Assembly: GCA_017547395.1 (NCBI GenBank) | Contig: JAFYPS010000032.1 | Location: forward strand, 1 to 17,275 | DNA length: 17,275 nucleotides | Reading direction: 5' to 3' | Origin: Clostridia bacterium | Lineage (GTDB): Bacteria > Bacillota_A > Clostridia > Oscillospirales > CAG-272 | Shown here: positions 2 through 15,097 of the stretch, in pieces | Numbering within the stretch: the stretch's first letter is position 1 | Layout of the letters: every line of letters starts with the position of its first letter | Translations under genes and position numbers: made by a program | Notes under the pieces: generated by a model | What the model saw: only the letters and a program-made list of their open reading frames with translations | What the model was told of the DNA's origin: nothing | The model's database searches: none

Positions 2-697
2 GCAAAAATGGCTCTGCTTACCGCGCGTGACGGGCTTTGCGTAAACCTTTACTTTGACGGTGAGATAAAAACTCGCCTCTTTGACGGTACTGCAGTGACA
101 GTTACTACGTCTACCGAGTATCCGAGGTGCGGAGAGGTGAAAATTACCGTTAATCCCGAAAGGGAAACCGAGTTTACTCTTATGCTGCGCAACCCTGCGT
201 GGAGCAAGACGACTTCGCTTAAAGTAAACGGTGAAAGCGCGGCTGTATGTGACGGATATATCAGGGTTAAGCGTTTCTGGAAATGCGGCGACACTGTTGA
301 ACTGTCACTTGATATGCGTGCCGAGGCTATTTACCCAACACCTTACGGTTCACAGATAATTATGTCAAAGCCAATCTGGGGCGCAAACTATATGATCCCT
401 GTCTTTGACGAAGAGGATGAAATGGCAAAATACCATATCGCAATTCGTCGCGGACCGATAATTCTTGCAGAGGATAACCGCCTTGGATACAGTGTTGATG
501 CACCTGTAGACGTCTCTGTAAACAACGGCTATGCGGACGTTACTCTTACCGAGGGTAAGGCTACGTATCCGTGTATGGTTGAAGCAGAGGTTAAACTCTG
601 TGACGGAAAGTCGCTTTTAGTCACCGACTATGCTTCGGCGGGCAAGACATTTGACGAGCGCAGCAAAATGGCGGCGTGGATACTTACAAATAAATAA
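2..697 (+). CDS. Glycoside hydrolase family 127-like (beta-L-arabinofuranosidase), C-terminal part
   Basis: The reading frame is open from the first bases, so this is the 3' end of a longer gene; the Met at position 8 is probably internal. The visible 231 residues match the C-terminal beta-sandwich region of GH127 (formerly DUF1680) enzymes. There is a 'LMLRNPAWS...LKVNGE...GYIRVKRFWKCGDTVELSLDM' type block (the family's 'LRIPGWA ... VNG ... R.W..GD.V.L.LPM' pattern), followed by 'IAIRRGPIILAED', which corresponds to the 'valqRGPlvy..E' strand. Family members release L-arabinofuranose from plant glycans or glycoproteins. The catalytic (alpha/alpha)6 barrel lies outside the window, so activity cannot be judged. 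The gene ends 26 nt before the first isomerase paralogue with no terminator between, so it is probably in the same transcript. The family call is fairly safe; the exact substrate is inference. Confidence 0.72.
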   Translation, partial: AKMALLTARDGLCVNLYFDGEIKTRLFDGTAVTVTTSTEYPRCGEVKITVNPERETEFTLMLRNPAWSKTTSLKVNGESAAVCDGYIRVKRFWKCGDTVELSLDMRAEAIYPTPYGSQIIMSKPIWGANYMIPVFDEEDEMAKYHIAIRRGPIILAEDNRLGYSVDAPVDVSVNNGYADVTLTEGKATYPCMVEAEVKLCDGKSLLVTDYASAGKTFDERSKMAAWILTNK

Positions 698-723: not shown

Positions 724-1683
724 ATGAAAAAAGAACTTGCAGTATCGATTCAAACATCAGGTTGGTACAATCCGCTTTTTGGCGGCGACACAAATCCGCT
801 CGTAGCATTTACAGAGCTTAAAAAGCACGGTTTTGATGCTATTGACTATAACATTGATACCAAGTATTTTCCGACGGATATAAGAGCAGGCAAGCACAGC
901 ACCTTCTACTCTCAGGATCTTGAAACTATTCTTGACTACTTCCGCCCGATAAAGGCGGCGCTTGACGAAGCCGGTATTGCGGTAGCGCAGACCCACTCGC
1001 CTTTCCCGAGCTATGTTGAGGATAATGTCGATATCAACGAGCATATTATCGAAGTTATAGGAAAGTGCCTTGCAGTATGTCAGTTTCTCGAATGTCCGGC
1101 TACTGTAGTTCATCCTTACACCAATGCCAAGGATAAGGACAAAGAACGCGAGGTAAATCTCAAGCTTTACCGCAGTCTTATTCCTTATGCAAAGAAGTAC
1201 GGCGTAAAGGTATGCCTTGAAAATATGGTAGGCTGGGGCTGCGGCGCTCATCCTATCAAGGGCGCTTGTGCTGATATGAACGAAACCGTTTGGTACATTG
1301 ATACACTCAATGCTGAGGCAGGCGAGGACGTATTCGGCTTCTGCCTTGATATCGGACACGCAAGCATCACAGGTAATAATATTTATCAGGATATTGTTAC
1401 TCTCGGAGACCGCCTTACCGTGCTTCATCTTCACGATAACGATGCAAAGGGCGATCTTCACCTTGCACCGTACACCTGCAAGTCACCCGGACACAGTAAC
1501 ATAGTTCACTGGAACGGACTTATGCGCGCGCTTCGTAAGATAGGCTACAAGGGGGCAATCAACTTTGAGACATTCGCCGCATTTGTAAATACTCCTAAAG
1601 AAGCGGCACCCGCATTGCTTTCATATATCGGTGCTATCGGTAATTATTTCAGAGACAAGATACTTAGTGAAGAGGAAATCTAA
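724..1683 (+). CDS. Sugar phosphate isomerase/epimerase family TIM barrel, paralogue 1 of 9 (divergent)
   Basis: A 319-residue protein of the xylose-isomerase-like / AP-endonuclease-2 superfamily (PF01261), the fold of D-tagatose 3-epimerase and related ketose epimerases, isomerases and C-glycoside eliminases. The putative metal-site positions are present: Glu166 (VCLEN), Asp209 and His212 (FCLDIGHA), His235/His237 (LHLHDND) and Glu282 (INFET). The family 'HSPFP' (91-95) and 'VHP' (129-131) motifs are also kept. It is the outlier of the array: where the other eight have DQHxAP followed by an RKTDW block, it has 'GDLHLAPY' and then 'SPGHSNIVHW' (254-263), nearer to the canonical D.H..PG....W loop of the wider family. 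It follows the GH127 gene by 26 nt with a good AGGAG site at 711-715. No signal peptide, so cytoplasmic. It could be the ancestral enzyme or one with a different specificity; the reaction is not known. Confidence 0.85.
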   Translation: MKKELAVSIQTSGWYNPLFGGDTNPLVAFTELKKHGFDAIDYNIDTKYFPTDIRAGKHSTFYSQDLETILDYFRPIKAALDEAGIAVAQTHSPFPSYVEDNVDINEHIIEVIGKCLAVCQFLECPATVVHPYTNAKDKDKEREVNLKLYRSLIPYAKKYGVKVCLENMVGWGCGAHPIKGACADMNETVWYIDTLNAEAGEDVFGFCLDIGHASITGNNIYQDIVTLGDRLTVLHLHDNDAKGDLHLAPYTCKSPGHSNIVHWNGLMRALRKIGYKGAINFETFAAFVNTPKEAAPALLSYIGAIGNYFRDKILSEEEI

Positions 1684-2607
1684 ATGAAAGAACTTTCGAT
1701 CTCTGTTCAAACCGCCGGATGGCTTAACCCTCTTTTTGGAGAAGAAAGAGCGAGTGAAGCCTTTGAGTTTATAAAAAAGTGCGGTTTTGAATCGCTTGAT
1801 TACAACATAGACACTAAACTTATTCCGCGACAGATTGACAAGAATGACCGCGGTACGTTTTTTACCAAAAGTGTTGATGAAATTCTTGAATACTACGCAC
1901 CTATCAAGGAAGCACTTGATAAAAGCGGAATAACAATGACGCAGGCGCACGCACCGTTCCCGCTTTTCAGACGCTCAAGCGAGGAAATGAGCGACTTTCT
2001 TATCGAAGCACTCGAAAAGTGTCTTGCCGCATGTAAATTCCTTGAAATTCCCGCTATTGTTACCCACCCATGTAACTACCTTGACAGAGAAAACGAGAAA
2101 AAGTGCAATCTTGCACTCTTCCGCCGCATAATTCCGATTGCAAAGCAGTATGGCGTTAAGATTTGTCTTGAAAATGTACCGAACGTAAGTGCAGGGCATG
2201 TGGTTTCGGGCACATGCTGTGACGTAAACGAGGCGAATTGGTATATTGATATGTTTAATGACGAAGCGGGTGAGGATATTTTCGGATTTTGCTTTGACAT
2301 CGGACATGCGAACATTTCAAGCGTAAATATGTATGACTACATTACAAAGCTTGGCAGTCGCCTGACTGTGCTTCATCTTCACGATAACGATGCGGTTTCC
2401 GACCAGCATTTTGCGCCTATGACACAGCGCAAGACCGACTGGGAAGGTTTTATTGAAGGTCTTCGTGCTATAAATTACCGCGGACCGATTAATTTTGAAA
2501 GTTGCAAGTCAATTATGCAGTATCCGAGAGAACTTATTCCCGCAATGCTTAACTATACTGCAGAGATTGGCGAATACATCAGGGGGAGAGTGCTAAAAAG
2601 TGAGTAA
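1684..2607 (+). CDS. Sugar phosphate isomerase/epimerase family TIM barrel, paralogue 2 of 9 (type A)
   Basis: 307 residues, starting on the base right after the stop of paralogue 1, with AGAGG at 1671-1675. The metal-site positions are intact: Glu163 (ICLEN), Asp205 and His208 (FCFDIGHAN), His231/His233 (HLHDND) and Glu272 (NFES). 'QAHAPFP' (87-93) and 'THP' (127-129) line the barrel mouth. It carries the array-specific DQH (240-242) and QRKTDW (248-253) block. It is co-linear with paralogue 8 without gaps over residues 1-280, with about 171 identical positions by hand count (about 61%). Shared 'GWLNP', 'PLFRR' and 'HPC.YLD' motifs make the two a sub-type, here called A. Identity to paralogue 4 is lower, about 55%. 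Cytoplasmic enzyme; the reaction is probably epimerisation, isomerisation or elimination on a sugar or keto-sugar, substrate unknown. Confidence 0.87.
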   Translation: MKELSISVQTAGWLNPLFGEERASEAFEFIKKCGFESLDYNIDTKLIPRQIDKNDRGTFFTKSVDEILEYYAPIKEALDKSGITMTQAHAPFPLFRRSSEEMSDFLIEALEKCLAACKFLEIPAIVTHPCNYLDRENEKKCNLALFRRIIPIAKQYGVKICLENVPNVSAGHVVSGTCCDVNEANWYIDMFNDEAGEDIFGFCFDIGHANISSVNMYDYITKLGSRLTVLHLHDNDAVSDQHFAPMTQRKTDWEGFIEGLRAINYRGPINFESCKSIMQYPRELIPAMLNYTAEIGEYIRGRVLKSE

Positions 2608-3553
2608 CGAACTTGACATATCGGTTATAAGCAGTTGGTTGCATTATTACGGCGGAGAAGCAAATCCAACCGAGGCATTTGAGGTTGCAAAAGCGGTAGG
2701 AATTGAAGCGCTTGACTTCAGTTTTGGCACCAGATACTATTGGAAAGACGTAATAAAAAGAGAGAGAAGCGCATTCTTTTCGCAGGATATTGAAACTATT
2801 ATAAAAGCGTATACTCCCGTAAAAGAAGCGATGGAAAAAACGGGAATCAGACTTTGTCAGGCACACGCACCTTTCCCGCTTTGCTTTATACGCGGGGAGG
2901 TAGAGGAGTTCAATCTGTATTTAATTGATGTTGTAGAAAAATGTCTTGCAGTTTGCAAGTATCTTTCTATACCCGCGCTTGTTGTTCATCCGTCAGGATA
3001 TTTTGTCAAGGAAATCGAGCGTAAAACTAATCTTACTATGTACAGGCGAATGATTCCGCTCGGCAAAAAGTACGGAGTGAAGCTTTGCCTTGAAAATCTG
3101 TTTTACCGTCCTTCCGAGATACAGCCGGGTGTGGCGCCTCCTAATACTATTGTCGGCGGAGCATGCTCCGAGGCGGCAGAAGCCGCGTGGTATATTGACA
3201 CGCTGAATGCTGAGGCAGGCGAGGATATTTTCGGATTTTGCTTTGACCTTGGTCATGCTAATCTTTGTAAGCGCAATATCCGAGAGGAGCTTAATATTCT
3301 TGGACACCGTCTTACCTTACTCCATTTGCACGAAAACGATTCTGTTGACGACCAGCATGCTTTGCCTATGACACAGCGTAAAACCGACTGGGACGGACTT
3401 ATCGAGGGACTTCGCGATATAAACTATCGTGGAGCTATCAGTTTTGAGACCGCGCCTTCATTGCCTGATCCCAAGGAACTTGTTCCTGTCAAACTTAAGT
3501 ATATCGCGAAAGTCGGTCAGTATATAAGAGATAAAATTCTCGAGGAGAGATAA
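2600..3553 (+). CDS. Sugar phosphate isomerase/epimerase family TIM barrel, paralogue 3 of 9 (type B)
   Basis: 317 residues with a GTG start that overlaps the end of paralogue 2 by 8 nt; a G-rich ribosome site lies at 2582-2587. The metal-site positions are kept: Glu165 (LCLEN), Asp216 and His219 (FCFDLGHAN), His242/His244 (LHLHEND, with Glu where most copies have Asp) and Glu283 (SFET). After the first metal Glu it has a proline-rich insertion at about 168-186, longer than in any sister, in the loop that normally covers the active site. It shares 'EKTGI', 'FFSQDIETI' and the 'CKRN.R.ELNILG' helix with paralogues 5 and 7 (type B). The substrate-loop residues differ from its sisters ('DQHALPM' for 'DQHFAPM'). 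The longer loop and altered pocket suggest a different or larger substrate, but this is inference. Confidence 0.86.
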   Translation: MSNELDISVISSWLHYYGGEANPTEAFEVAKAVGIEALDFSFGTRYYWKDVIKRERSAFFSQDIETIIKAYTPVKEAMEKTGIRLCQAHAPFPLCFIRGEVEEFNLYLIDVVEKCLAVCKYLSIPALVVHPSGYFVKEIERKTNLTMYRRMIPLGKKYGVKLCLENLFYRPSEIQPGVAPPNTIVGGACSEAAEAAWYIDTLNAEAGEDIFGFCFDLGHANLCKRNIREELNILGHRLTLLHLHENDSVDDQHALPMTQRKTDWDGLIEGLRDINYRGAISFETAPSLPDPKELVPVKLKYIAKVGQYIRDKILEER

Positions 3554-3554
3554 A

Positions 3555-4475
3555 ATGAACAATGAGCTTTTAGTATCCGTTCAGGCGGCAGGCTGGCTTA
3601 ATCCTATGCTTGCAGAGGGGAAATGTAAAGAAGGCTTCAAACTTATGAAAGAGTGCGGAGTTGAGGCTCTCGACTACAACTTTGAAGCAAAGCTTACCGG
3701 AAAACAGATAAGCAATAGCGAAAAAGGCGACTTCTATACAAAGAGTATTGACGAAATCATCGATTATCTCCGCCCGATTAAAGAAGCGGCTGACGAATTC
3801 GGTATAAAGTTTTCGCAGTCACACGCACCTTTCCCCGCGTACAGACGCAGTGACCTTGAATATGACGAATATCTTTTTGAGGTTATGGAAAAGTGTCTTG
3901 CGGGATGTAAGTTCCTTGAGTGCCCGCAGATAGTTGTACACCCGTATTGCTGTCTCAGCAAAGAAGAGGCGCTTGAAACAAATCTTGCAATTTATCGCCG
4001 TCTTATGCCTATCGCAAAGAAATACGGTGTAAAGATTTGTCTTGAAAACATCTGGTTCTATAACAAGGGTCGCATTACTGCAATTGACTGCTCTGATGCA
4101 AATAGAGCTGCTGCGCTTGTGGATCAGCTCAACGAAGAGGCAGGCGAGGAAGTCTTCAGTTTCTGCTTCGACCTTGGTCATGCTACTCTTCTCAATACAA
4201 ACGTGCGCGAATTTCTTCTTACCATGGGCAAGAGAATTACCGCGCTCCACCTCCACGATAACGATGCGATTTCCGATCAGCACTTTGCACCCATGACTCA
4301 GCGCAAGACCGATTGGGACGGACTTATTTCAGGACTTCGCGAAATAGGTTACCGCGGTCCCATCAATTTTGAAAGCGCAAACTCTATAATGGGTTATCCA
4401 AAAGAACTTTGGGATGCAATGATTGAATATACCGTAGAGGTAGGCAAATACATAAGAGAGAAGGTACTCGCATAA
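3555..4475 (+). CDS. Sugar phosphate isomerase/epimerase family TIM barrel, paralogue 4 of 9 (type C)
   Basis: 306 residues, 1 nt after the previous stop, with GAGGAG at 3542-3547. Metal-site positions: Glu164 (ICLEN), Asp206 and His209 (FCFDLGHA), His232/His234 (LHLHDND) and Glu273 (NFES). DQH at 241-243 and QRKTDW at 249-254. It is co-linear with paralogue 6 over residues 1-280, with about 204 identical positions by hand count (about 73%), the closest pair of the array. Both begin with the same 18 residues and share 'SQSHAPFPAYR' and 'DCSDANRAAALVD', which replaces the 'EEAVWYID' helix of the other copies. Loss of the Trp-Tyr pair in that helix is the clearest mark of type C and may change oligomer contacts. 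Function beyond a metal-dependent sugar isomerase, epimerase or eliminase fold cannot be stated. Confidence 0.87.
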   Translation: MNNELLVSVQAAGWLNPMLAEGKCKEGFKLMKECGVEALDYNFEAKLTGKQISNSEKGDFYTKSIDEIIDYLRPIKEAADEFGIKFSQSHAPFPAYRRSDLEYDEYLFEVMEKCLAGCKFLECPQIVVHPYCCLSKEEALETNLAIYRRLMPIAKKYGVKICLENIWFYNKGRITAIDCSDANRAAALVDQLNEEAGEEVFSFCFDLGHATLLNTNVREFLLTMGKRITALHLHDNDAISDQHFAPMTQRKTDWDGLISGLREIGYRGPINFESANSIMGYPKELWDAMIEYTVEVGKYIREKVLA

Positions 4476-5413
4476 TGAGCAACGAACTCAGAGTATGCAT
4501 TCAAAACGGCTCATGGATGAACGATTTCTACGGTGGCGATGCGAATGCACTTCTCGGCTTTACCGCCGCTAAAGAAGCGGGATTTGAGGCAATCGACTTT
4601 AATATAAACGACCGTTATCCCGGAAAATTTATAAATGCAAAAGAGCAGAGCGCATTCTTTTTACAGGATATCGAAACGATTCTCAAAAGCTTTATTCCCG
4701 TGAAAGAAGCAATTGAAAAGACAGGAGTAGTTCTCGATCAGGCTCACGCATCCTTCCCGCTTTATATAGACAAATGCGAGGAAATGAACGACCACCTTAT
4801 TATGGTAGTTGACAAGATGTGCGCAGTTTGTCAGTATCTCGGATGTCCTGCAATTGTTGTTCACCCCTGGAGCAGTTTTGACAAGAAAAAAGAGCGCGAG
4901 GTAAATCTTGCAATGTACCGCCGTATGATACCGATAGGCAAAAAGTACGGAGTAAAGCTTTGTCTTGAGAATATGTTTATGTCAAAGCCCGGTACAGGAT
5001 ACGTCGGCGGCGCTTGTGCAGAAGCAGAAGAAGCTGTCTGGTATATAGACACTCTTAACGCCGAGGCAGGCTTTGATTGCTTCGGTTACTGCTTTGACCT
5101 TGGCCACGCTAATCTTTGCAAGCGTGACGTGCGCGACGAGCTTAATATTCTCGGCCACCGTCTTACCTGTCTGCATCTGCACGATAACAATTCAACCAAT
5201 GACCAGCATTTCGCGCCAATGACACAGCGCAAGACCGACTGGGACGGACTTATTGCAGGTCTTCGCGATATAAATTACCGCGGCGCGCTTAGTTTTGAAA
5301 CTTTTGCTTCTATGCAGAAGTATCCCAAGGAACTTGTGCCTGCTATGCTTAAATATACTGCAAGAGTAGGCAAGTACATAAGAAGTAAAATTCTTGAGGG
5401 AGAGGTAAAATGA
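4475..5413 (+). CDS. Sugar phosphate isomerase/epimerase family TIM barrel, paralogue 5 of 9 (type B)
   Basis: 312 residues. Its ATG shares one base with the stop of paralogue 4 (TAATG), with AGAAGG at 4459-4464, so translation is probably coupled. Metal-site positions: Glu165 (LCLEN), Asp208 and His211 (YCFDLGHAN), His234/His236 (LHLHDNN) and Glu275 (SFET). DQH at 243-245 and QRKTDW at 251-256. It belongs to type B by 'EKTGV', 'QDIETIL', 'GGACAEAEEAVWYIDTLNAE' and 'CKRDVRDELNILG'. Two substitutions are peculiar to it: HASFP (91-95) where the others have HAPFP or HSPFP, and HDNN for HDND behind the metal-site His. Both lie near the expected active site, so its specificity may differ. No transmembrane or signal segment. 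Confidence 0.87.
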   Translation: MSNELRVCIQNGSWMNDFYGGDANALLGFTAAKEAGFEAIDFNINDRYPGKFINAKEQSAFFLQDIETILKSFIPVKEAIEKTGVVLDQAHASFPLYIDKCEEMNDHLIMVVDKMCAVCQYLGCPAIVVHPWSSFDKKKEREVNLAMYRRMIPIGKKYGVKLCLENMFMSKPGTGYVGGACAEAEEAVWYIDTLNAEAGFDCFGYCFDLGHANLCKRDVRDELNILGHRLTCLHLHDNNSTNDQHFAPMTQRKTDWDGLIAGLRDINYRGALSFETFASMQKYPKELVPAMLKYTARVGKYIRSKILEGEVK

Positions 5414-6339
5414 ACAACGAACTTTTAGTATCTGTACAAGCCGCGGGATGGCTTAATCCTATGTTTGATAAGGGTATGGGTGAAGATGGCTTTAAACTTA
5501 TGAAGGAGTGCGGAGTTGAAGCTATTGACTACAACTTCGAAGCAAAGCTTCCGCACAGACTGATTGAAAGCGGAGATAAGGGAACTTTCTTTACAAAGAG
5601 CATAGAGGAAATTCTCGATTACCTTAAGCCTATAAAAGAGTGGGCTGACAAATACGGTATCAAATTCGCTCAGTCACACGCTCCGTTTCCGGCATATAGA
5701 ATCGGTGACGATGAATATAATAAGTATATTGTTGAAGCAATAGAAAAGTGTATTATTGCTTGCGATTTTCTTGAATGTCCTGCAATTGTTGTACACCCTT
5801 TCTGCCACGTTGACAGAAAGGTAGCGGAGAATGCAAATCTTTCATTTTACCGCGCTCTTATGCCCACTGCGAAAAAGTACGGTGTGAAGATCTGCCTTGA
5901 AAATATCTTTTTCTATAACAATGGAGTCATAACCGTTATAGATTGCTCGGATGCAAACCGCGCGGCAGCACTCGTTGACAAACTTAACGAGGAGGCGGGT
6001 GAGGATGTATTCGGCTTCTGCTTTGACCTCGGTCATGCAAGCCTTCTCGGCACCAACGTCCGTGAATTCATTCGTACTATGGGAAAGAGAATTACCGCTT
6101 TGCATCTTCACGATAACGACGGTTATGTTGACCAGCATCTTGCACCTATGACACAGCGCAAGACTGACTGGGAGGGGCTTATTGCCGGTCTTCGTGATGT
6201 TGGCTATCGCGGACCTATTAGTTTTGAAAGCGCAAAATCTATCCTTGACGGATACCCAACGGTGCTTTGGGGCGCTATGATCGAATATACCGCTGATGTT
6301 GGTAAGTACATCAGAAAGAAGGTGCTTGAAAATGCGTAA
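5410..6339 (+). CDS. Sugar phosphate isomerase/epimerase family TIM barrel, paralogue 6 of 9 (type C)
   Basis: 309 residues; the start overlaps the stop of paralogue 5 as ATGA, with a GAGGGAGAGG purine tract at 5396-5405. Metal-site positions are at the same numbers as in paralogue 4: Glu164, Asp206, His209, His232/His234 and Glu273. DQH at 241-243 and QRKTDW at 249-254. The first 18 residues are identical to those of paralogue 4, yet 8 of those 18 codons differ, all silently, so the pair is old and under protein-level constraint rather than a fresh duplication. A Trp in 'KEWADKYGI' (78) and 'CIIACDF' (114-120) set it apart from its sister. It lies between two type B genes, as paralogue 4 does. 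Confidence 0.87.
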   Translation: MNNELLVSVQAAGWLNPMFDKGMGEDGFKLMKECGVEAIDYNFEAKLPHRLIESGDKGTFFTKSIEEILDYLKPIKEWADKYGIKFAQSHAPFPAYRIGDDEYNKYIVEAIEKCIIACDFLECPAIVVHPFCHVDRKVAENANLSFYRALMPTAKKYGVKICLENIFFYNNGVITVIDCSDANRAAALVDKLNEEAGEDVFGFCFDLGHASLLGTNVREFIRTMGKRITALHLHDNDGYVDQHLAPMTQRKTDWEGLIAGLRDVGYRGPISFESAKSILDGYPTVLWGAMIEYTADVGKYIRKKVLENA

Positions 6340-7276
6340 GGAACTTGCAATAGCAGTACAGTCCGCCCCATGGTATAACGTGTACGGCGGAGAGGACAAT
6401 GCAGAATATGCTCTTGAGGTGGCAAAGGCTTGCGGCTTTGAGGCTGTAGACTTTAACGTTGAAGCGAGATATACTTGTCCTCAGGTACTCACCAAAAAAC
6501 CTAGTGAGTTTTTCTCTCAGGATATTGAAACAATTCTTAAAGTATACGAGCCGCTTAAAAAGGCAACGGAGAAAACCGGAATTCAGCTTCTTCAGGCGCA
6601 TGCGCCATTCCCCTGCTATTTTATGAGCGGCCCTGATGAATTTAACGCACATCTTTATGACGTTCTTGATAAGTCCTGTGCTATCTGTCAGTATCTCGGT
6701 ATTCCCGCTGTAGTTATGCATCCTTTCATCTGTTATGACAGGGAAATCGAGAGAAAGGTAAATCTCGAGATGTACCGCAAAATGATTCCTTTTGGTAAAA
6801 AGTACGGAATAAAGCTTTGCCTTGAGAATCTGTGGATCAACAGAACTGAAATGTCAACGTCATTCATCGGAGGCGCCTGCGCCGAGGCAGAGGAGGCTGT
6901 CTGGTACATAGATACCCTCAATGCCGAAGCAGGTGAGGAGATATTTGCATTTTGCTACGATCTCGGTCATGCAACTATATGCAAGCGTAACGTACGCGAT
7001 GAGCTTAATATACTCGGTAAGCGCGTAATATGTGTGCATCTTCACGATAATGACGGAATGAACGACCAGCACTATGCGCCGATGATTCGTCGCAAGACCG
7101 ACTGGGAGGGACTTATTTTAGGACTTCGCGATATAGGCTACCGTGGTGCTATCAGCTTTGAAACGGGCGGTGCGCTCAAAAAGTATCCCAAGGATCTTAT
7201 TCCCTCGATGCTTAAATATATTGCAAAAGTAGGCAAATATATAAGAGACAGAATTCTCGAAGAAGAGGTAAAGTAA
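6332..7276 (+). CDS. Sugar phosphate isomerase/epimerase family TIM barrel, paralogue 7 of 9 (type B)
   Basis: The start chosen is the ATG at 6332 (MRKELA...), giving 314 residues. An in-frame ATG at 6296 would add 12 residues that match nothing in the sister proteins and would overlap paralogue 6 by 44 nt. With the chosen start the overlap is 8 nt and AAGG lies at 6319-6322. Metal-site positions: Glu165 (LCLEN), Asp210 and His213 (FCYDLGHA), His236/His238 (VHLHDND) and Glu277 (SFET). Type B by 'EKTGI', 'FFSQDIETILK' and 'CKRNVRDELNILG'. It has 'MIRRKTDW' (251-258) where the sisters have 'MTQRKTDW' or 'FTQRKTDW', and 'MHP' for 'VHP'. The change of Thr-Gln to Ile-Arg in an otherwise near-invariant active-site block is a credible specificity change. 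Confidence 0.86.
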   Translation: MRKELAIAVQSAPWYNVYGGEDNAEYALEVAKACGFEAVDFNVEARYTCPQVLTKKPSEFFSQDIETILKVYEPLKKATEKTGIQLLQAHAPFPCYFMSGPDEFNAHLYDVLDKSCAICQYLGIPAVVMHPFICYDREIERKVNLEMYRKMIPFGKKYGIKLCLENLWINRTEMSTSFIGGACAEAEEAVWYIDTLNAEAGEEIFAFCYDLGHATICKRNVRDELNILGKRVICVHLHDNDGMNDQHYAPMIRRKTDWEGLILGLRDIGYRGAISFETGGALKKYPKDLIPSMLKYIAKVGKYIRDRILEEEVK

Positions 7277-7277
7277 A

Positions 7278-8207
7278 ATGAAAGACCTTGCAATTTCCGT
7301 ACAGACTTCAGGCTGGTTAAACCCTATGGGCGGCGAAGCAAAGGCAGACGATGCCTTTAAGTTTATAAAGGACTGCGGATTTGAAGCAATTGATTATAAT
7401 ATTGACACACATCTCTCCTGGGGAATGATAGACAAGAGTGACAAGGGCGATTTTTACACTAAGAGCCTTGAAGAGCTTCTTGAATACTATGCTCCTGCAA
7501 AAGAGGCAATGCAGAAAAACGGTATTGCGGGCGCGCAGGCGCACGCACCGTTCCCACTTTTCCGCCGCAGGGATGCAGAGTACAGTGAATTTCTTATGGA
7601 AACCATGGAAAAGTGTGTTGCGATCTGCGATTTTCTCGGCATTCCTGCGATAGTTGCACATCCTTGTACCTACCTTGATAAGGATCAAGAGCGCGAGGTA
7701 AACCTTAATATGTACCGCCGTATGATGCGGTTTGCAGGCAAGTACAACGTAAAGATATGCCTTGAAAATCTGTTTGGAAATCACGCGGGCCATTTTATGA
7801 ACGGTGCTTGTGCTACCGCAGAGGAAGCAGTCTGGTATATCGACAAGCTTAATGCGGAGGCAGGCTTCGATTGCTTTGGCTTTTGCTTTGACCTTGGCCA
7901 TGCAAACGTTTGCAATATGCATATCCGTGAGTTCTTGCGCACTCTCGGCAACCGTCTTACCGTGCTTCATCTTCATGATAATGACAGTGTTACCGACCAG
8001 CATTTTGCACCTATGACTCAGCGCAAGACCGACTGGGAGGGACTCATTCTCGGTCTCCGCGATATAAATTACCGCGGCGCACTTAACTTTGAAACCTTCA
8101 ACGCACTTGTAAACTATCCCGCAGAGCTTCGCCCGGTAATGCTTAAGTATATTTCGGGTGTCGGCGAGTATATCCGAAACAAGATACTTGAGGAAGAGGT
8201 AAAGTAA
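7278..8207 (+). CDS. Sugar phosphate isomerase/epimerase family TIM barrel, paralogue 8 of 9 (type A, mosaic)
   Basis: 309 residues, 1 nt after the previous stop, with AGAGG at 7264-7268. Metal-site positions match paralogue 2 exactly: Glu163 (ICLEN), Asp205 and His208 (FCFDLGHAN), His231/His233 and Glu272 (NFET). DQH at 240-242 and QRKTDW at 248-253. The first half is type A ('TSGWLNP', 'IDKSDKGDFYTKS', 'PLFRR', 'HPCTYLD'). Residues about 177-211 are type B-like ('GACATAEEAVWYID', and 'EAGFDCFG', shared only with paralogue 5). Then 'IREFLRTLG' is type C-like. This patchwork fits old recombination or convergent constraint among the copies. Cytoplasmic enzyme, reaction unknown. Confidence 0.87.
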   Translation: MKDLAISVQTSGWLNPMGGEAKADDAFKFIKDCGFEAIDYNIDTHLSWGMIDKSDKGDFYTKSLEELLEYYAPAKEAMQKNGIAGAQAHAPFPLFRRRDAEYSEFLMETMEKCVAICDFLGIPAIVAHPCTYLDKDQEREVNLNMYRRMMRFAGKYNVKICLENLFGNHAGHFMNGACATAEEAVWYIDKLNAEAGFDCFGFCFDLGHANVCNMHIREFLRTLGNRLTVLHLHDNDSVTDQHFAPMTQRKTDWEGLILGLRDINYRGALNFETFNALVNYPAELRPVMLKYISGVGEYIRNKILEEEVK

Positions 8208-8208
8208 A

Positions 8209-9132
8209 GTGAAAGAACTTGCAATTTCCGTTCAAATGGCAGGCTGGTTCAATCCCTTGTTTGGCGATGAAAAGGTTGATGATGGGTTTGCTTTTGCAAA
8301 AGAACTCGGATATGAGTCGCTCGACCTTGGGCTTGACGGTAAATACTGGTGCGGTTATATCGAAAAGGGAATTATAGACGAGTTCTATACCCGCGATATT
8401 CCGGCACTGCTTGAATATTATAAGCCGTATAAAGACGCGGCTGAAAAATACGGTATTGCATTCGGTCAGGCACATGCTCCTTTCCCGCTCCACCTTGAGG
8501 GCAATGACGAGATAAACGCGCATCTTATAACCGTTGTTGAAAAATGTGCGGCAATATGTGAATATCTCGGATGCCCCGCTCTTGTTGTGCATCCTTGGGT
8601 ATGTCACGATAAGGACCGTGAGCGCGAAGTAAATCTCGATATGTACCGCCGTATGATACCAATCGGCAAAAAGTACAAATCGGTTAAACTGTGCCTTGAA
8701 AACATATATGACAGATATGGCGGAACTCCCATGAGCGGTTGTTGTTGCGATGCGAGCGAGGCTGTGTGGTATATTGATACCTTGAATGGTGAGGCGGGAG
8801 ACGACGTTTTCGGATTTTGTTTTGATCTCGGTCACGCAACTGTCACCCGTCGTAATATCCGTGCAGATATAAGGATTTTAGGCAACAGAATAACTGTTCT
8901 TCATCTGCATGAAACTGATGCGGACAACGATCAGCACTATGCTCCGTTCACTCAGCGTAAGACAGACTGGGATGGGCTTGTTGCAGGACTTCGCGATATA
9001 AACTATCGCGGCAGCATTAATTTTGAGACCTGCGCATCCGTAATGAAGTATCCGAAAGAACTTATACCGTCTATGCTCCGTTATATTGCGGACGTAGGAA
9101 AATACATAAGAAAGAGATTATTTGAAGAATGA
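8209..9132 (+). CDS. Sugar phosphate isomerase/epimerase family TIM barrel, paralogue 9 of 9
   Basis: 307 residues with a GTG start 1 nt after the stop of paralogue 8, with an AGGAAGAGG ribosome site at 8191-8199. The 'KELAISVQ' N-terminus aligns with its sisters from that GTG. The metal-site motifs are intact: LCLEN, FCFDLGHA, LHLHETD and INFET. The third has Glu-Thr where others have Asp-Asn, echoing the Glu in paralogue 3. It keeps DQHYAP but has 'FTQRKTDW' for 'MTQRKTDW'. It does not fit types A, B or C cleanly: the N-terminus is A-like, 'REREVNLDMYRRMIPIGKKY' resembles types B and A, and it has a one-residue insertion in 'KKYKSVKLCLEN'. It is the last copy before the dehydrogenase gene and overlaps it by 4 nt. 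Confidence 0.87.
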   Translation: MKELAISVQMAGWFNPLFGDEKVDDGFAFAKELGYESLDLGLDGKYWCGYIEKGIIDEFYTRDIPALLEYYKPYKDAAEKYGIAFGQAHAPFPLHLEGNDEINAHLITVVEKCAAICEYLGCPALVVHPWVCHDKDREREVNLDMYRRMIPIGKKYKSVKLCLENIYDRYGGTPMSGCCCDASEAVWYIDTLNGEAGDDVFGFCFDLGHATVTRRNIRADIRILGNRITVLHLHETDADNDQHYAPFTQRKTDWDGLVAGLRDINYRGSINFETCASVMKYPKELIPSMLRYIADVGKYIRKRLFEE

Positions 9133-10388
9133 ATATTAAAGAACTTGTAAAAGGAATTGACAACTGCGAGTGTGGCAAGAGCCACGCTTGCCCTATTGAT
9201 TACGTTGAAATCGGACACGGCGCAACCAAGATTCTTCCCGAAATCTGTAAGGATTACAGCAATATACTTCTCGTTTCCGATAAGAATACCTATCGCGTTT
9301 GCGGAGCAGACGTTGCGGCACTTCTTGCCGACAAGGTAAGTGCAAGCGTTGTTATGGAGGATAACGGCGACGTTGTTATTCCTAACGAAGAAAAGATTGC
9401 AGAGATCGAGAGTTACCTCACCGATAAGACAGATCTTATTATCGGTGTCGGCTCAGGCGTTATCAATGACCTTTGCAAATATGTCAGCCACAAGCATAAC
9501 CTTTATTACTATATAGTTGCTACCGCACCCTCTATGGACGGTTATGCATCTGTAGGTTCGGCGCTCATACTCGAGGGTATGAAGATTACTCTTAATGCAC
9601 GTCCTCCTAAGGCTATTATTGCGGATACCGCTGTGCTTAAGGACGCGCCTGTGGATATGATAAGAGCAGGTTACGGTGATATCGTTGGTAAGTATTCCTG
9701 CCTTAACGACTGGAAACTCAGCGCATTTATCAACAATGAGTACTTCTGCAAGACCGTATATGACCTCACGTATAGCTGCGCAAAGCAGGTTGAAACCCTT
9801 GCAGACGGTATTAATGACCGCGATGAGAACACTGTCGGCGTACTTATGGAAGCACTTGTTGCAGTTGGTATTGCAATGGCATACGTTGGCAATTCACGTC
9901 CCGCATCGGGCAGCGAGCATCACCTTTCTCACTATTTTGAGATTACCTGTATTCTTGAAAAGAAAGAATATTTTGCTCACGGCATTGACGTTGCATTCTC
10001 TGCAGTGGCTACTGCGGCACTCCGTGAAAAGATGCTTAAGAGCACTCCTAAGAAAATCGCGTTTGACAGAGCCGATTGGGAAAAGAACATCCGCCGCGTT
10101 TACCACACTTCTGCAGACGGTGTAATCGCACTTCAGGACAAACTCGGCTGGTACAATAACGATGACAGCGAAATTGTCGAGGGCAAGTGGGAGGAGATCA
10201 AGAAGATTCTTTCCGAGGTTCCTACCGAGGGTGAGTTCAAGGCTATGGTTGAGCGCGTAGGTCTTAAGTATGCCGATTTTGAAAAGATGTACGGTGCAGA
10301 GAAGATAGCGGACTCTATTCTCTATGCAAAGGACCTTAAGGATCGCTATACCGTTCTCTGGCTCTACTATAACTATTTCAGAGGTTAG
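9129..10388 (+). CDS. araM: sn-glycerol-1-phosphate dehydrogenase family protein (AraM-like iron-type alcohol dehydrogenase fold)
   Basis: A 419-residue protein of the AraM/EgsA branch of the metal-dependent dehydroquinate synthase / glycerol dehydrogenase superfamily. Visible marks are the family N-terminal Cys pair and 'IGHGA', the nucleotide-binding 'GVGSGVIND' (106-114), 'TAPSMDGYAS' (132-141), and metal ligands Asp184 (GYGDIVGKYS), a His in 'GSEHHLSHYFE' (His264/His268) and His284 (AHGID). Characterised AraM (Bacillus subtilis) reduces dihydroxyacetone phosphate to glycerol-1-phosphate with NAD(P)H and lies in the arabinose operon. Here the gene overlaps paralogue 9 as ATGA with only a weak ribosome site, so it probably depends on coupled translation. 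Placement at the end of a sugar-epimerase operon makes a different sugar- or polyol-phosphate substrate possible. Family assignment is firm, substrate is not. Confidence 0.85.
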   Translation: MNIKELVKGIDNCECGKSHACPIDYVEIGHGATKILPEICKDYSNILLVSDKNTYRVCGADVAALLADKVSASVVMEDNGDVVIPNEEKIAEIESYLTDKTDLIIGVGSGVINDLCKYVSHKHNLYYYIVATAPSMDGYASVGSALILEGMKITLNARPPKAIIADTAVLKDAPVDMIRAGYGDIVGKYSCLNDWKLSAFINNEYFCKTVYDLTYSCAKQVETLADGINDRDENTVGVLMEALVAVGIAMAYVGNSRPASGSEHHLSHYFEITCILEKKEYFAHGIDVAFSAVATAALREKMLKSTPKKIAFDRADWEKNIRRVYHTSADGVIALQDKLGWYNNDDSEIVEGKWEEIKKILSEVPTEGEFKAMVERVGLKYADFEKMYGAEKIADSILYAKDLKDRYTVLWLYYNYFRG

Positions 10389-10438
10389 TTTGAAGGACAA
10401 ATCTTTCAAACGGCATGCGCAAATTTCGGCGTATGTCG
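10388..10438 (+). other. Two adjacent intercistronic RNA hairpins
   Basis: The 95-nt gap before the oxidoreductase gene is the only sizeable non-coding gap in the operon part visible here. Its first half can fold into two back-to-back stems. The first pairs 10388-10397 with 10402-10411 (10 bp, one G-U, CAAA loop) and begins inside the dehydrogenase stop codon. The second pairs 10412-10420 with 10429-10437 (9 bp with two G-U pairs, 8-nt loop); C10411-G10438 could extend it if the first stem opens. No U-tract follows, so it is not a standard terminator. A role in mRNA processing or stability, or in setting the level of the last gene, is inference. Confidence 0.5.
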
Positions 10439-10465
10439 GAACCGGCAAAAATTCGCGCTTTGCAA

Positions 10466-10472
10466 AAAGGAG
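10466..10472 (+). promoter_or_regulatory. Ribosome binding site deciding the start of the FAD oxidoreductase
   Basis: An AAAGGAG tract stands 11 nt before the ATG at 10484. It favours that start over the in-frame ATG at 10415, which lies inside the second hairpin and has no comparable site. Confidence 0.75.
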
Positions 10473-10483
10473 TTCTCATTGAT

Positions 10484-11773
10484 ATGATTACTTACACAAA
10501 AGAAGTTGAGTCCTTCGGTCACTATGACGTTGTAGTTATCGGTGGCGGTCCTGCAGGCGTTTCTGCCGCTATCGAAGCGTCAAGAAACGGTGCAAAGGTA
10601 CTTCTTATCGAGGGAAGCGGTATGCTCGGCGGTATGGCAACAACCTCTCTTGTCGGACCTTTTATGACTTGCTATAACGGTAATGCCGACCGTCCGCTTG
10701 TAGGAGGAGTGTTCCGCGAGATAATAGATGAACTTAAAAAGGCGGATGCGGTAATTCCCCCCGAGGAACTTGATGCACCGAGTATTTATACTACTTATAT
10801 TGAAAAGTATCATAAGCACGTTACCGCTTTTGATTCATTCGGACTTCAGGTAGCGCTTGATAGCCTGACCGAAAAATACGGAGTAGAGGTTCTGCTTTAC
10901 ACGAGATTTGTTGACTGTATTACCGAAAACGGCAGGATAAAGTCTGTTATCCTTGCGGCACTTGAAGGAATAAAGTGTGTAAGTGCGGATATCTTCATCG
11001 ACTGTTCGGGAAATGCAGACGTTGCTGCAGCAGCAGGGGTTCCCACCTGGAAAGGCGAGGAAACAACCAACGTTCCGCAACCCGGTACTCTTATGTTCGA
11101 GGTTAACGGTGTTTGCGATGATGACGTTGTTGCATTCGGAAAGAACGTTGCATGGCCTGTAAAGTTTTACCGCACGCCAAAGAGCGGTACGTATAAAATC
11201 AATCATTATCGCGTGTTTGATACCGATGCTGCAAATTCGCAGAGTATGACCAAGGCGCATATCGAGGCGAGAAAGCAGGTGCTTAAGGCACATTCGGAAC
11301 TTAAAGCAAAGATACCCGGTTTTGAAAACTGCAATATCACTCAGGTTGCTTCTGTTTTCGGAGTGAGAGAAAGCCGTCATATTGAGGGTGAGTATAAACT
11401 TACTGTAGATGACGTTGCGAGCGGCAAAAAGTTTGATGACCGCATTGCAGCATATGCTTTCGGTATGGATGTTCATCCCCGTTCATCTACGGAAAACAGC
11501 GGCAATTTCAAGATTGCTACGGCTGATGCATATTATATTCCGTATCGCGTACTCGTTCCTAAAAACTGTGACAATCTGCTTGTTGCGGGCAAGACAGTTT
11601 CCTGCGAGTCGCAGGCGGCAGGCGGGCTTCGCGTTATGCCTTGTGCAATGGCAATGGGACAGGCGGCAGGTGCAGCGGCTTCTATCGCCGTAAAGGGAAA
11701 ACTTGCTCTCAAAAACGTTCCTTACGCCGACGTGCAGAAGATACTTCTCGACCACGGTGCAATACTTGATTAA
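10484..11773 (+). CDS. FAD-dependent oxidoreductase (PF12831 FAD_oxidored type)
   Basis: 429 residues from the ATG at 10484. The extra 23 codons back to 10415 look non-native (basic, unlike the family) and that start has no ribosome site. A Rossmann dinucleotide fold opens the protein: GGGPAG at 20-25, the acidic residue Glu43 in 'LIEG' that should bind the ADP ribose, then 'GMLGGMATT' (46-54). A C-terminal FAD-domain block 'LLVAGKTVSCE...GGLRVMPCAMAMGQAAG' completes the cofactor site. Such proteins are widespread in sugar and glycan operons of gut bacteria and are often misnamed xanthan lyase-like; few have known substrates. There is no signal peptide, so it acts in the cytoplasm. It is the last gene of the operon. 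A role in oxidising a sugar or sugar acid made or used by the isomerase array is plausible but unproven. Confidence 0.83.
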   Translation: MITYTKEVESFGHYDVVVIGGGPAGVSAAIEASRNGAKVLLIEGSGMLGGMATTSLVGPFMTCYNGNADRPLVGGVFREIIDELKKADAVIPPEELDAPSIYTTYIEKYHKHVTAFDSFGLQVALDSLTEKYGVEVLLYTRFVDCITENGRIKSVILAALEGIKCVSADIFIDCSGNADVAAAAGVPTWKGEETTNVPQPGTLMFEVNGVCDDDVVAFGKNVAWPVKFYRTPKSGTYKINHYRVFDTDAANSQSMTKAHIEARKQVLKAHSELKAKIPGFENCNITQVASVFGVRESRHIEGEYKLTVDDVASGKKFDDRIAAYAFGMDVHPRSSTENSGNFKIATADAYYIPYRVLVPKNCDNLLVAGKTVSCESQAAGGLRVMPCAMAMGQAAGAAASIAVKGKLALKNVPYADVQKILLDHGAILD

Positions 11774-11811: not shown

Positions 11812-13141
<1,330 letters not shown>

Positions 13142-13161
13142 AACAACCTCCTATCATATTT

Positions 13162-13190
13162 ATAATAGCACTGTTTTATGGAAAAAGCAA
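13162..13190 (-). promoter_or_regulatory. Predicted sigma-A promoter for the AraC regulator / D-lyxose isomerase unit
   Basis: Read on the minus strand, TTGCTT (complement 13185-13190) is followed after 17 nt by TATTAT (complement 13162-13167), about 20 nt upstream of the coding start at 13141. One AAGCAAT repeat overlaps the -35 box, which would suit self-regulation. Confidence 0.6.
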
Positions 13191-13262
13191 TTTTATACAA
13201 GAAATAAGCAATATTTTTATTGTATTGCCTAAAACGTAGTGATATTCTAAATAAAAAGCAAT
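13185..13262 (+). repeat. Three AAGCAAT direct repeats in the divergent regulatory region (candidate operators)
   Basis: AAGCAAT occurs at 13185-13191, 13206-13212 and 13256-13262. The first two are spaced 21 bp apart, two helical turns, as in direct-repeat half-sites used by AraC-family proteins. In addition GCAATA (13208-13213) and TATTGC (13223-13228) form an inverted repeat with a 9-nt spacer. A short A/T-rich motif can recur by chance, so binding by the adjacent regulator is a hypothesis. Confidence 0.45.
13220..13248 (+). promoter_or_regulatory. nanA: Predicted sigma-A promoter for the N-acetylneuraminate lyase gene
   Basis: TTGTAT (13220-13225) and TATTCT (13243-13248) are separated by 17 nt, and the gene starts 25 nt after the -10 box with AGGAG at 13263-13267. 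The second AAGCAAT repeat lies just upstream and the third just downstream of the expected start site. Confidence 0.55.
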
Positions 13263-13273
13263 AGGAGATTACT

Positions 13274-14143
13274 ATGAAAAACTTTGGTGGAATATTTACG
13301 GCACTTCTGACCCCGTTTGATAAGAACGGAAAAATAAATGAAAAAGAGCTTGAAAAACTCGTAAAATACAATATTGATAAGGGAGTAAGCGGCTTTTACG
13401 TGTGTGGAAGCACTGCGGAGGCATTTTTGCTTTCGACCGACGAGAGAAAGCAGGTGCTTGACGTCGTAAAGGCTTCTGCAGAAGATAAGACTCTCATTGC
13501 CCACATCGGCTCGGTAAATGAAATAGAGGCGACCTGCCTTGCAAAATATGCAGAAACTCTTGGCTACGATGCAATTTCATCGGTTTCGCCTTTCTATTAT
13601 AATTTCACCTTCAAAGAAATAAAGGACTATTATTTCCGTCTTGCAAACAGCGTTTCGCTTCCAATGGTTGTTTACAATTTTCCCGCGTTTTCGGGTGTAA
13701 ACCTCGGTATGAAAGAGATTTCGCAGTTCCTCTCGGATGATAAGTTTCTCGGTCTCAAGCATACCTCAAATGATTATTTCACGCTTGAACAGGTGAAGGC
13801 TGCGTTTCCTGAAAAAACAGTCTACAACGGATTTGACGAAATGTTTCTTGCGGGACTTTCTATGGGAGCAGACGGCGGAATAGGAAGCACGTATAATTTT
13901 ATGGCTGATAAATTTGTAAAGATTAAAGCGCATTTTGAAAATGGAGAAATCAAAGAAGCGCAGGCACTTCAGGCTACTGCTAATAAGATAATAGCCGTGC
14001 TTTGCAAGGTTGGTGTTATGGCGGGCGAAAAAGAAGTCTTAAATCAGCTTGGATTTAACTTTGGCGAGTGTCGTAAACCCTTTAAATCTCTTAACGAAGA
14101 TGAAAAAGAACTTATTAAAAATGAAATAATTCCTTTAGTTTAA
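13274..14143 (+). CDS. nanA: N-acetylneuraminate lyase (class I aldolase of the DapA/NanA family)
   Basis: 289 residues, the usual NanA length (about 290-305). It should cleave N-acetylneuraminate to N-acetylmannosamine and pyruvate through a Schiff base. Visible are the pyruvate carboxylate motif GSTAE (45-49), Tyr134 (YNFPAFSG), the Schiff-base Lys162 (GLKHTSNDY) and the NanA-specific 'NGFDEMFLAGLSMGADGGIGSTYNF' block (185-209). The Asp, Glu and Ser in this block point to sialic acid rather than dihydrodipicolinate. No nanE or nanK or sialic-acid transporter is in the window, so the rest of the pathway must lie elsewhere if this is its role. The gene has its own promoter and lies divergent from the AraC gene. 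A related 2-keto-acid aldolase role cannot be excluded. Confidence 0.86.
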   Translation: MKNFGGIFTALLTPFDKNGKINEKELEKLVKYNIDKGVSGFYVCGSTAEAFLLSTDERKQVLDVVKASAEDKTLIAHIGSVNEIEATCLAKYAETLGYDAISSVSPFYYNFTFKEIKDYYFRLANSVSLPMVVYNFPAFSGVNLGMKEISQFLSDDKFLGLKHTSNDYFTLEQVKAAFPEKTVYNGFDEMFLAGLSMGADGGIGSTYNFMADKFVKIKAHFENGEIKEAQALQATANKIIAVLCKVGVMAGEKEVLNQLGFNFGECRKPFKSLNEDEKELIKNEIIPLV

Positions 14144-14150
14144 ATATGGC

Positions 14151-14180
14151 TTGACCGCACCTCTTTTTTTGTGTTAGAAT
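14151..14180 (+). promoter_or_regulatory. Predicted sigma-A promoter for the ribokinase / nucleoside hydrolase unit
   Basis: TTGACC (14151-14156) and TAGAAT (14175-14180) with an 18-nt spacer stand just after the nanA stop. The ribokinase gene starts 23 nt later. This implies that the kinase and hydrolase can be expressed apart from nanA. Confidence 0.68.
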
Positions 14181-14198
14181 AAACGAAAAGAGAGGTGC
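14157..14198 (+). repeat. Inverted repeat GCACCTCT / AGAGGTGC around the ribokinase promoter
   Basis: GCACCTCT (14157-14164) directly follows the -35 box, and its exact complement AGAGGTGC (14191-14198) covers the expected Shine-Dalgarno sequence. The arms are 34 bp apart centre to centre and enclose the -10 box. It could be a two-site operator. The left arm lies upstream of the expected transcript start, so it would act as DNA rather than as an RNA hairpin unless transcription reads in from nanA, in which case the hairpin would hide the ribosome site. Confidence 0.4.
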
Positions 14199-14203
14199 TT
14201 TTT

Positions 14204-15097
14204 ATGCGTATACTGAACTTCGGTTCTTGTAATATTGACTACGTTTACTCTGTAGAACACAGTGCTATGCCGGGTGAAACAGTTTCGTCGTCTTCTCTTA
14301 ACCTTTTTGCCGGAGGAAAGGGACTCAATCAGTCGATAGCTGCTGCAAAAGCAGGCGCAGCCGTTTATCACGCCGGAAATATTGGTGCTGACGGAAAGAT
14401 GCTTCGCGAAATTCTACGAGAAAGCGGAGTTGACGATACGTATCTTAAAGATACCGATGCTAAAAACGGTCACGCTATTATTCAGGTGTCGGCAAGCGGT
14501 GAAAATTGCATTGTACTTTATCCCGGCTCAAATTTTATGCTCACTGAAGAATATATCGACAGTGTACTTGACAGTTTTTCTGCGGGCGACATTCTGCTTT
14601 TACAAAATGAAACAAACCTTGTGGGATATATCGTTGACGGTGCTTTTGAGCGCGGTATGCAGGTAGTGCTGAACCCGTCTCCCTTTAACGATGCACTGAA
14701 AGCGATTGATTTTTCAAAACTTTCCTATATTATATTAAACGAGGTTGAGGCAAGCGCCTTTACCGGATGTGAAAAAGCCGAGGACAGTCTTTCATACGTT
14801 AAGAAACACTATCCTTTGCTTAAAGTAATGCTTACCCTTGGAAAGAACGGGTGTATTTACACAGACAGCGACAGTTATCTCACACAATCTGTTTTTCGCG
14901 TGAAAGCGGTGGATACTACGGCCGCGGGCGACACCTTTACCGGATATTTTCTTGCTGCAGTTGCTGACGGTAAGCCGTATTCGGATGCGATAAGAATGGC
15001 ATCTGCGGCATCCGCAATAGCCGTTTCGAGAAACGGTGCAGCACCGTCAATCCCGTATAAAAATGAAGTAGAGGAGTTTTTAAAGAACTATGACTAA
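14204..15097 (+). CDS. Ribokinase-like PfkB-family sugar kinase
   Basis: 297 residues from the ATG at 14204, 6 nt after AGAGGTGC. The in-frame GTG at 14195 sits inside that ribosome site and is less likely. The PfkB fold is clear: N-terminal 'GSCNIDYVYSV' (7-17), 'GGKGLNQS' (37-44) with the ribokinase-type GG-KG-N substrate motif, 'NPSPFN', 'LNEVEA' and the C-terminal signature DTTAAGDTFTG (237-247), with Asp243 as catalytic base. It is expected to phosphorylate ribose or a similar sugar with ATP in the cytoplasm. It overlaps the nucleoside hydrolase gene by 8 nt, which supports ribose as substrate: the hydrolase frees ribose and the kinase traps it. Another furanose or deoxyribose is possible. 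Confidence 0.85.
   Translation: MRILNFGSCNIDYVYSVEHSAMPGETVSSSSLNLFAGGKGLNQSIAAAKAGAAVYHAGNIGADGKMLREILRESGVDDTYLKDTDAKNGHAIIQVSASGENCIVLYPGSNFMLTEEYIDSVLDSFSAGDILLLQNETNLVGYIVDGAFERGMQVVLNPSPFNDALKAIDFSKLSYIILNEVEASAFTGCEKAEDSLSYVKKHYPLLKVMLTLGKNGCIYTDSDSYLTQSVFRVKAVDTTAAGDTFTGYFLAAVADGKPYSDAIRMASAASAIAVSRNGAAPSIPYKNEVEEFLKNYD

Follow-up and report, generated by a model that had tools for sequence, protein, structure and literature searches.

A head-to-tail array of nine PF01261 TIM-barrel genes with endonuclease IV-type metal residues and a possible role in sugar conversion

Organization of the gene array

In this study, a stretch of 17,275 nucleotides from contig JAFYPS010000032.1 (the window, to whose full length all coordinates refer) was analyzed. 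Nine full-length open reading frames for triosephosphate isomerase (TIM) barrels of family PF01261 lie head to tail on its plus strand at 724–9132, with 306–319 codons each. The copies were numbered W1–W9 in map order. All nine passed the PF01261 gathering cut-off of 31.1 bits, with 74.8–100 bits, and have the (β/α)8-barrel fold of the family. The junctions from W1 to W9 were 0, −8, +1, −1, −4, −8, +1, and +1 bases; since they span only −8 to +1 bases, no other gene stands between the copies. Judged from the sequence, the gene spacing is of the operon type, and in this respect it supports the original prediction.

The array is preceded by the 3′ part of a GH127 gene (β-L-arabinofuranosidase-type; 2–697, plus strand), which is cut by the window start, matched the GH127 middle domain PF20736 at 5.9e-22, and ends 26 bases before W1. 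It is followed on the plus strand by a PF13685 iron-type dehydrogenase gene (9129–10388; 7.6e-32), which overlaps W9 by 4 bases. The dehydrogenase is glycerol-1-phosphate dehydrogenase-like, with NF002022 (sn-glycerol-1-phosphate dehydrogenase) as its best NCBIfam match at 189.5 bits, below the cut-off of 413. A PF12831 flavin adenine dinucleotide (FAD)-dependent oxidoreductase gene (10484–11773, plus strand; 6.8e-111) comes next, after a gap of 95 bases if it starts at 10484; its start is uncertain, and the frame is open from 10415. Reading frames, PF01261 scores, and junctions thus agree with the layout first described: nine adjacent genes with nothing between them, GH127 before and two oxidoreductases after.

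Phylogeny and age of the copies

The tree of 87 proteins divided most of the copies into two clades. Clade A consisted of W2 (1684–2607), W4 (3555–4475), W6 (5410–6339), and W8 (7278–8207), with support of 100/99. Clade B consisted of W3 (2600–3553), W5 (4475–5413), and W7 (6332–7276; longest frame from 6296), with support of 100/98. W1 (724–1683; 100 bits against PF01261) and W9 (8209–9132) fell outside both. The map order is therefore W1, A, B, A, B, A, B, A, W9, a strict alternation. Four A copies on all even places represent one of 126 placements of four among nine, and the pattern was spotted after the fact.

Duplication of a two-gene (A–B) unit is the simplest cause of the alternation. 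The closest pairs mirror around W5 (1684–8207): W4 with W6 (73% identity; support 100/100), W3 with W7 (90/86), and, weakly, W2 with W8. This mirror order exists despite the same orientation of all array genes. Because the closest pairs run in this order, events beyond A–B pair duplication are needed; a one-step pair duplication was rejected as the full account, as it leaves the mirror pairing unexplained.

The alternation also fits, without showing it, the idea that clade A and clade B proteins form A–B hetero-oligomers, in which case the array would supply active-site combinations instead of nine separate enzymes. The overlapping or nearly touching genes are consistent with this. However, A–B unit duplication gives the alternation without any protein contact, and only nine columns cleanly split A from B, two of them in catalytic-face loops. 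Mixed oligomers are considered unlikely. With so few columns splitting them, the two clades do not evidently stand for distinct chemistries.

Pairwise protein identity between copies was 43–73%. In five copy pairs tested, nonsynonymous divergence (dN) was 0.17–0.31; synonymous divergence (dS) was 1.8–3.2 in four and not computable in the fifth. Synonymous sites are saturated and dN is low in these pairs. The best ungapped DNA matches among the copies were 75% over 300 nucleotides and 78% over 55–80 nucleotides.

The homologue set contained at least 1045 proteins at E ≤ 1e-10, of which the best 120 were compared individually. Among these 120, each copy had a distinct relative of 82–93% identity: P0018 for W1 (93%), P0002 for W2 (91%), P0015 for W3 (82%), P0009 for W4 (88%), P0005 for W5 (92%), P0014 for W6 (88%), P0006 for W7 (91%), P0001 for W8 (90%), and P0010 for W9 (85%). 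Each copy was joined to its own relative on a starred tree branch, with support of 98–100 and 88–100. Since these separate relatives exist, the copies separated earlier than the related organisms did and have been retained since. The copies appear old and look kept by selection.

The original prediction had considered that resequencing might reveal an assembly artefact, and this worry is contradicted by the DNA divergence, the separate relatives, and the saturated dS with low dN. Assembly artefact and recent amplification were rejected on the same grounds, with DNA matches of at most 78%. Redundant dosage or drift after recent duplication would agree with the membership of all copies in one family and one direction. 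The 43–73% identity, the substitution pattern of the five pairs, the intact metal-type residues described below, and the relative of each copy all speak against it, and an account by redundancy, drift, or artefact is extremely improbable.

Recurrence of the array

Family members were searched for in 395 genomes, and 62 had a match at E ≤ 1e-60. At most five candidates were scored per genome, and 20 genomes, including G003, G276, and G380 with five each, were rescored fully. The surveyed genomes are in many contigs, whose ends may cut rows short. In G003, nine matches reached E ≤ 1e-50, and no more than four of them stood in one row. Pairs were found in G276, G348, G380, G136, G219, and G216, and G155 had three in a row when weaker members were counted. 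The class-wide PF01261 survey gave too few places for row counts, and nine copy-rich genomes were therefore searched fully (G488, G453, G416, G415, G380, G276, G166, G484, and G457, with 24–52 PF01261 matches each). Rows were counted by eye as genes on the same strand with gaps of about 650 bases or less. Among the 279 matches, the longest row was three (G488 contigs C7 and C55, G380 contig C31). In 20 loci taken from named genomes, the most copies in one locus was four (L003). These counts uphold the view that the layout is unusual. A survey finding such runs to be common had been named as a possible refutation: rows of two to four are indeed common, and a row of nine was not met again in the genomes surveyed.

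A second long array may exist. Eight of the 120 homologues (P0008, P0012, P0017, P0022, P0024, P0026, P0027, and P0053) share a longest-contig size of 15,798 bases, and so does P0122, which is 91% identical to the PF13685 dehydrogenase. In the tree, the eight were placed as counterparts of W1, W2, W6, and W8, two more W1-like proteins, one B-type protein, and one A-type protein. From the equal sizes, we infer an array of at least eight copies with a PF13685 oxidoreductase on one 15,798-base metagenome contig. Equal sizes of 7,807 bases likewise suggest a link between P0121 (92% to the dehydrogenase) and P0004 (87% to W2). Neither size occurred among the best 120 of 988 relatives of the FAD oxidoreductase, so the link of this enzyme with the array is seen in the window only.

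The 20 named-genome loci came mostly from Oscillospiraceae, Lachnospiraceae, and other Clostridia, with three from Selenomonas and three remote archaeal ones. Cattle, deer, or rabbit ('Lapin') samples appear in eight of the titles, and the close relatives P0004 and P0121 are labelled Clostridia bacterium. By these relatives, the host is probably a gut member of the Clostridia. Among viral contigs, none of 47 pattern matches was a relative. A search of open-access papers aimed at tandem PF01261 arrays listed none that contains the term for the fold, and among the papers listed for 3-keto-glycoside breakdown, deglycosylation, C-glycosides, and zinc centres no such array was apparent from title or abstract.

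Metal-type residues and catalytic-face loops

Nine metal-type residues are invariant in all copies: H91, H130, E166, D209, H212, H235, D244, H246, and E282 (W1 numbering). All nine are kept in 165 of 167 family proteins, a set made of the nine copies, the best 120 homologues (P0013 being W3 itself), and 38 proteins from loci picked by score. The original prediction had reported an intact site of Glu, Asp, His, and Glu. These residues are E166, D209, H235, and E282 and are indeed invariant, but the list was incomplete, as five more residues of endonuclease IV type are kept.

The three-metal ligands of an endonuclease IV are given in PMC13113976 as His75, His115, Glu153, Asp187, His190, His229 (His224 in the legend), Asp237, His239, and Glu269. 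By that list, the array copies have identical ligand types in the order H, H, E, D-x-x-H, H, D-x-H, E, and the D-x-x-H and D-x-H spacings match. A PDB search with the family profile found endonuclease IV chains at 5.8e-05 (3aal) to 5.1e-04. 

The two exceptions were L005_9102 and L051_10849. At L005, the frame 9102–9977 encodes a diverged member in which four of the nine metal positions differ, and it stands directly before an intact member at 9944–10927; it is possibly a pseudoenzyme partner of this following copy. At L051 (genome G003), the frame at 10849 is open for 354 amino acids, and the model matched only positions 5–215 of 308, as in a decaying copy or a sequence error.

The surroundings of the site are more variable. 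The structure of W8, the only copy modelled, was predicted with a predicted local distance difference test (pLDDT) score of 95.8. Loop limits were set by hand from its predicted secondary structure, and columns were treated as independent. With ligands excluded, the catalytic-face loops had a mean entropy of 1.47. All other non-strand positions averaged 1.07, a difference reached in 0 of 5000 permutations; helices by themselves averaged 1.14 (11 of 5000), and loops of the opposite face 0.75 (2 of 5000). The most variable loops were W8 42–58 and 164–180, and the latter also differs in length, by as many as nine residues. Conservation was seen in the D-x-H loop (entropy 0.78).

Comparison with known enzymes

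CbiR (NF041277) was the best NCBIfam match of all nine copies, with 36.8–45.7 bits against a cut-off of 105. The D-tagatose/D-psicose 3-epimerase model NF051856 gave 23.8–40.4 bits in all nine (cut-off 300). Endonuclease IV (TIGR00587) was matched by W8 only, with 18.5 bits (cut-off 129.65), and deoxyribonuclease IV models by W1, W2, and W8 with 20.6–27.5 bits (cut-offs 244–333). The names CbiR, psicose epimerase, fructoselysine epimerase, IolO, IolE, L-ribulose-5-phosphate epimerase, and endonuclease IV were all rejected, as every score lay below its cut-off.

The fold matches of the W8 model listed sugar epimerases and isomerases first. UlaE, D-tagatose/D-allulose 3-epimerases, and YcjR share the fold at 13–19% identity to the array protein, and the epimerase cut-offs are far off. 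The five extra metal-type residues are not known from the UlaE, tagatose/allulose epimerase, and YcjR families. The 50 fold matches listed included no endonuclease IV chain, which excludes nothing. The best PDB match, at about 20% identity, was the epimerase-like MJ1311 of Methanocaldococcus jannaschii (3wqo), and its alignment shows all nine metal-type residues. MJ1311 is not known to have an assigned activity; its published study is reported to remark on the nine zinc residues of endonuclease IV.

The family might instead consist of phosphoester hydrolases whose site, similar in type to that of endonuclease IV, holds two or three metals. The array would then cleave various phosphodiesters of sugars or polyols, and a polyol phosphate set free in this way would be oxidized by the glycerol-1-phosphate dehydrogenase-like enzyme. 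The retention of the nine residues in nearly the whole family, the agreement in order and types with the ligands listed in PMC13113976, and the nearness of the PF13685 neighbour to glycerol-1-phosphate dehydrogenases favour this, as do cytidylyltransferase-like and glycosyltransferase genes near distant relatives of the family (described below). CbiR, the top match of all copies and a member of the same superfamily, is a phosphodiester hydrolase according to PMC7733943; the copies differ from it in scores far under the cut-off, and no cobamide gene was named among the window proteins scanned. Sugar enzymes lead the fold matches, which opposes hydrolysis. Direct alignment with two endonuclease IV proteins placed six of the nine positions in shared columns, but the D-x-H motif and the last Glu were placed only by motif and spacing, the aligner having set gaps or another residue there. 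In profile alignment (hhalign) with the same two proteins, only the first two His motifs aligned, at a probability of 15%, and the global alignment was meaningless. A hydrolase family is seen as an unlikely alternative.

Glycoside deglycosylation, as by DgpB/CarB-type enzymes of C-glycoside breakdown, was an option of the original prediction. As enzymes of this kind that cleave 3-keto-glycosides or C-glycosides, the TIM barrels would split off the aglycone after the FAD oxidoreductase had made 3-keto-glycosides. The presence of this oxidoreductase in the operon agrees with the option, and so does the fold match to YcjR, a 3-keto-glucoside enzyme. FAD oxidoreductase genes also adjoin TIM genes elsewhere, with an overlap in L084 and a side-by-side position in L082. 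The α-subunits of C-glycoside deglycosidases (DgpC and counterparts) resemble the array copies as TIM barrels that bind metal through Glu, Asp, His, and Glu among others. In PMC8563793, C-deglycosidases are described as α–β complexes with Mn bound by Glu, Asp, His, Lys, and Glu (Lys271). At the position of this Lys, two residues after the metal His, all nine copies have His. Within the window, from base 1 on, a Pfam scan of 18 proteins named no β-subunit partner, and the 17 PDB sequence matches contained no C-deglycosidase. A C-glycoside deglycosidase identity was rejected for these reasons, and the wider deglycosylation option, which found no support here, is highly improbable.

Proposed function

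The results suggested that the array forms a specificity repertoire, made up of metal-dependent enzymes that act on plant-wall sugars, a reading to which we give a probability of roughly 0.5. A repertoire had been among the first proposals, and it is supported by the invariant ligands, by catalytic-face loops that vary more than helices or opposite-face loops, and by the old, low-dN copies. The nine enzymes would have a common catalytic core and differing pocket loops, and each would be specific for its own stereoisomer or linkage variant of these sugars. In such a pathway, GH127 would release arabinofuranosyl-type units. The products, as sugars, keto-sugars, or their phosphates, would be converted by the TIM barrels, with keto groups introduced or removed by the two oxidoreductases (PF13685 and PF12831). 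The sugar substrates, one substrate per copy, the order of steps, and the number of metals are what we infer. GH127, TIM-barrel, and PF13685 genes do stand together in one other genome.

As for the reaction, isomerization or epimerization, suggested by fold and neighbours, has slightly better than even chances. A lyase or other reaction is rather unlikely, and so, to a greater degree, is phosphoester hydrolysis, which is suggested by the metal-type residues and the CbiR likeness.

Several observations weigh against the sugar repertoire. No copy reached any NCBIfam cut-off, and a specific activity can therefore not be assigned. Both the nine-residue set and the CbiR match indicate hydrolysis no less than isomerization. 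No sugar transporter was found among the 18 window proteins scanned. Of the 38 genomes with family members, PF13685 relatives (E ≤ 1e-60) occurred in 23 and PF12831 relatives (E ≤ 1e-40) in 25, but only two genomes each had such a gene no farther than about 5 kb from a TIM match listed (G094 and G383 for PF13685, G001 and G002 for PF12831). In many fetched loci, the TIM genes are surrounded by ordinary genes, and conserved neighbours of sugar metabolism are missing. The case for a single fixed pathway is weakened by these neighbourhoods.

If the copies are specialists, one operon would provide nine closely comparable enzymes in which the core stays constant and the pockets differ, a natural test set for the rules of substrate choice in a superfamily whose functions are difficult to predict from sequence. 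Should the nine-residue centre bind two or three metals, it would link sugar epimerase-like barrels to phosphodiester hydrolases and give a chemistry to at least 1045 proteins (E ≤ 1e-10) that are named at most 'sugar phosphate isomerase/epimerase'. A bolder proposal combines these points: a new enzyme class of the PF01261 superfamily, with endonuclease IV-type multi-metal barrels for sugar or polyol chemistry, duplicated as A–B pairs and assembled in mixed oligomers into a combinatorial repertoire for plant-wall sugars. This combination is speculative and improbable as a whole.

Genomic neighbours

In G383 (L090), genes for PF13685 (45% identity), SIS, GH127, and one TIM copy (34%) are co-directional, and a divergent DeoR gene and a GH39 gene flank them. 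In G094 (L089), PF13685 (46%), SIS, and one TIM copy (34%) are adjacent, and a GH28 gene is nearby.

Fusions of PF13685 with a haloacid dehalogenase (HAD)-type phosphatase were present in 6 of 120 listed dehydrogenase relatives (P0134, P0140, P0148, P0157, P0162, and P0177). A PF13685 relative beside a HAD-type phosphatase gene was found in L094 by Pfam, and in L091, L093, and L095 by sequence start only. This arrangement resembles the neighbours araL and araM of Bacillus.

A longer, weak TIM relative of 406–441 amino acids was located directly or one gene before a standard copy in L007, L008, and L012–L017 (Selenomonas, Hungatella, and Lachnospiraceae). Its assignment to PF01261 could be confirmed in L014 and in L016, and not in L012. 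Cytidylyltransferase-like and glycosyltransferase genes occur near these longer relatives in L014 (by Pfam) and in L012, L015, and L017 (by clustering), hinting at activated polyols or surface glycans.

Past the operon (11812–16010), a minus-strand pair of genes faces a plus-strand row of three. The pair consists of a weak D-lyxose isomerase match (11812–12357; PF07385, 24.4 bits, cut-off 20.8), which lies beside the operon with unsure membership, and an AraC-family regulator with a cupin domain (12359–13141; PF00165, PF12833, and PF07883), a candidate regulator. The row consists of an N-acetylneuraminate lyase-type aldolase, which passes the NF003164 cut-off, a PfkB kinase, and a nucleoside hydrolase-like gene.

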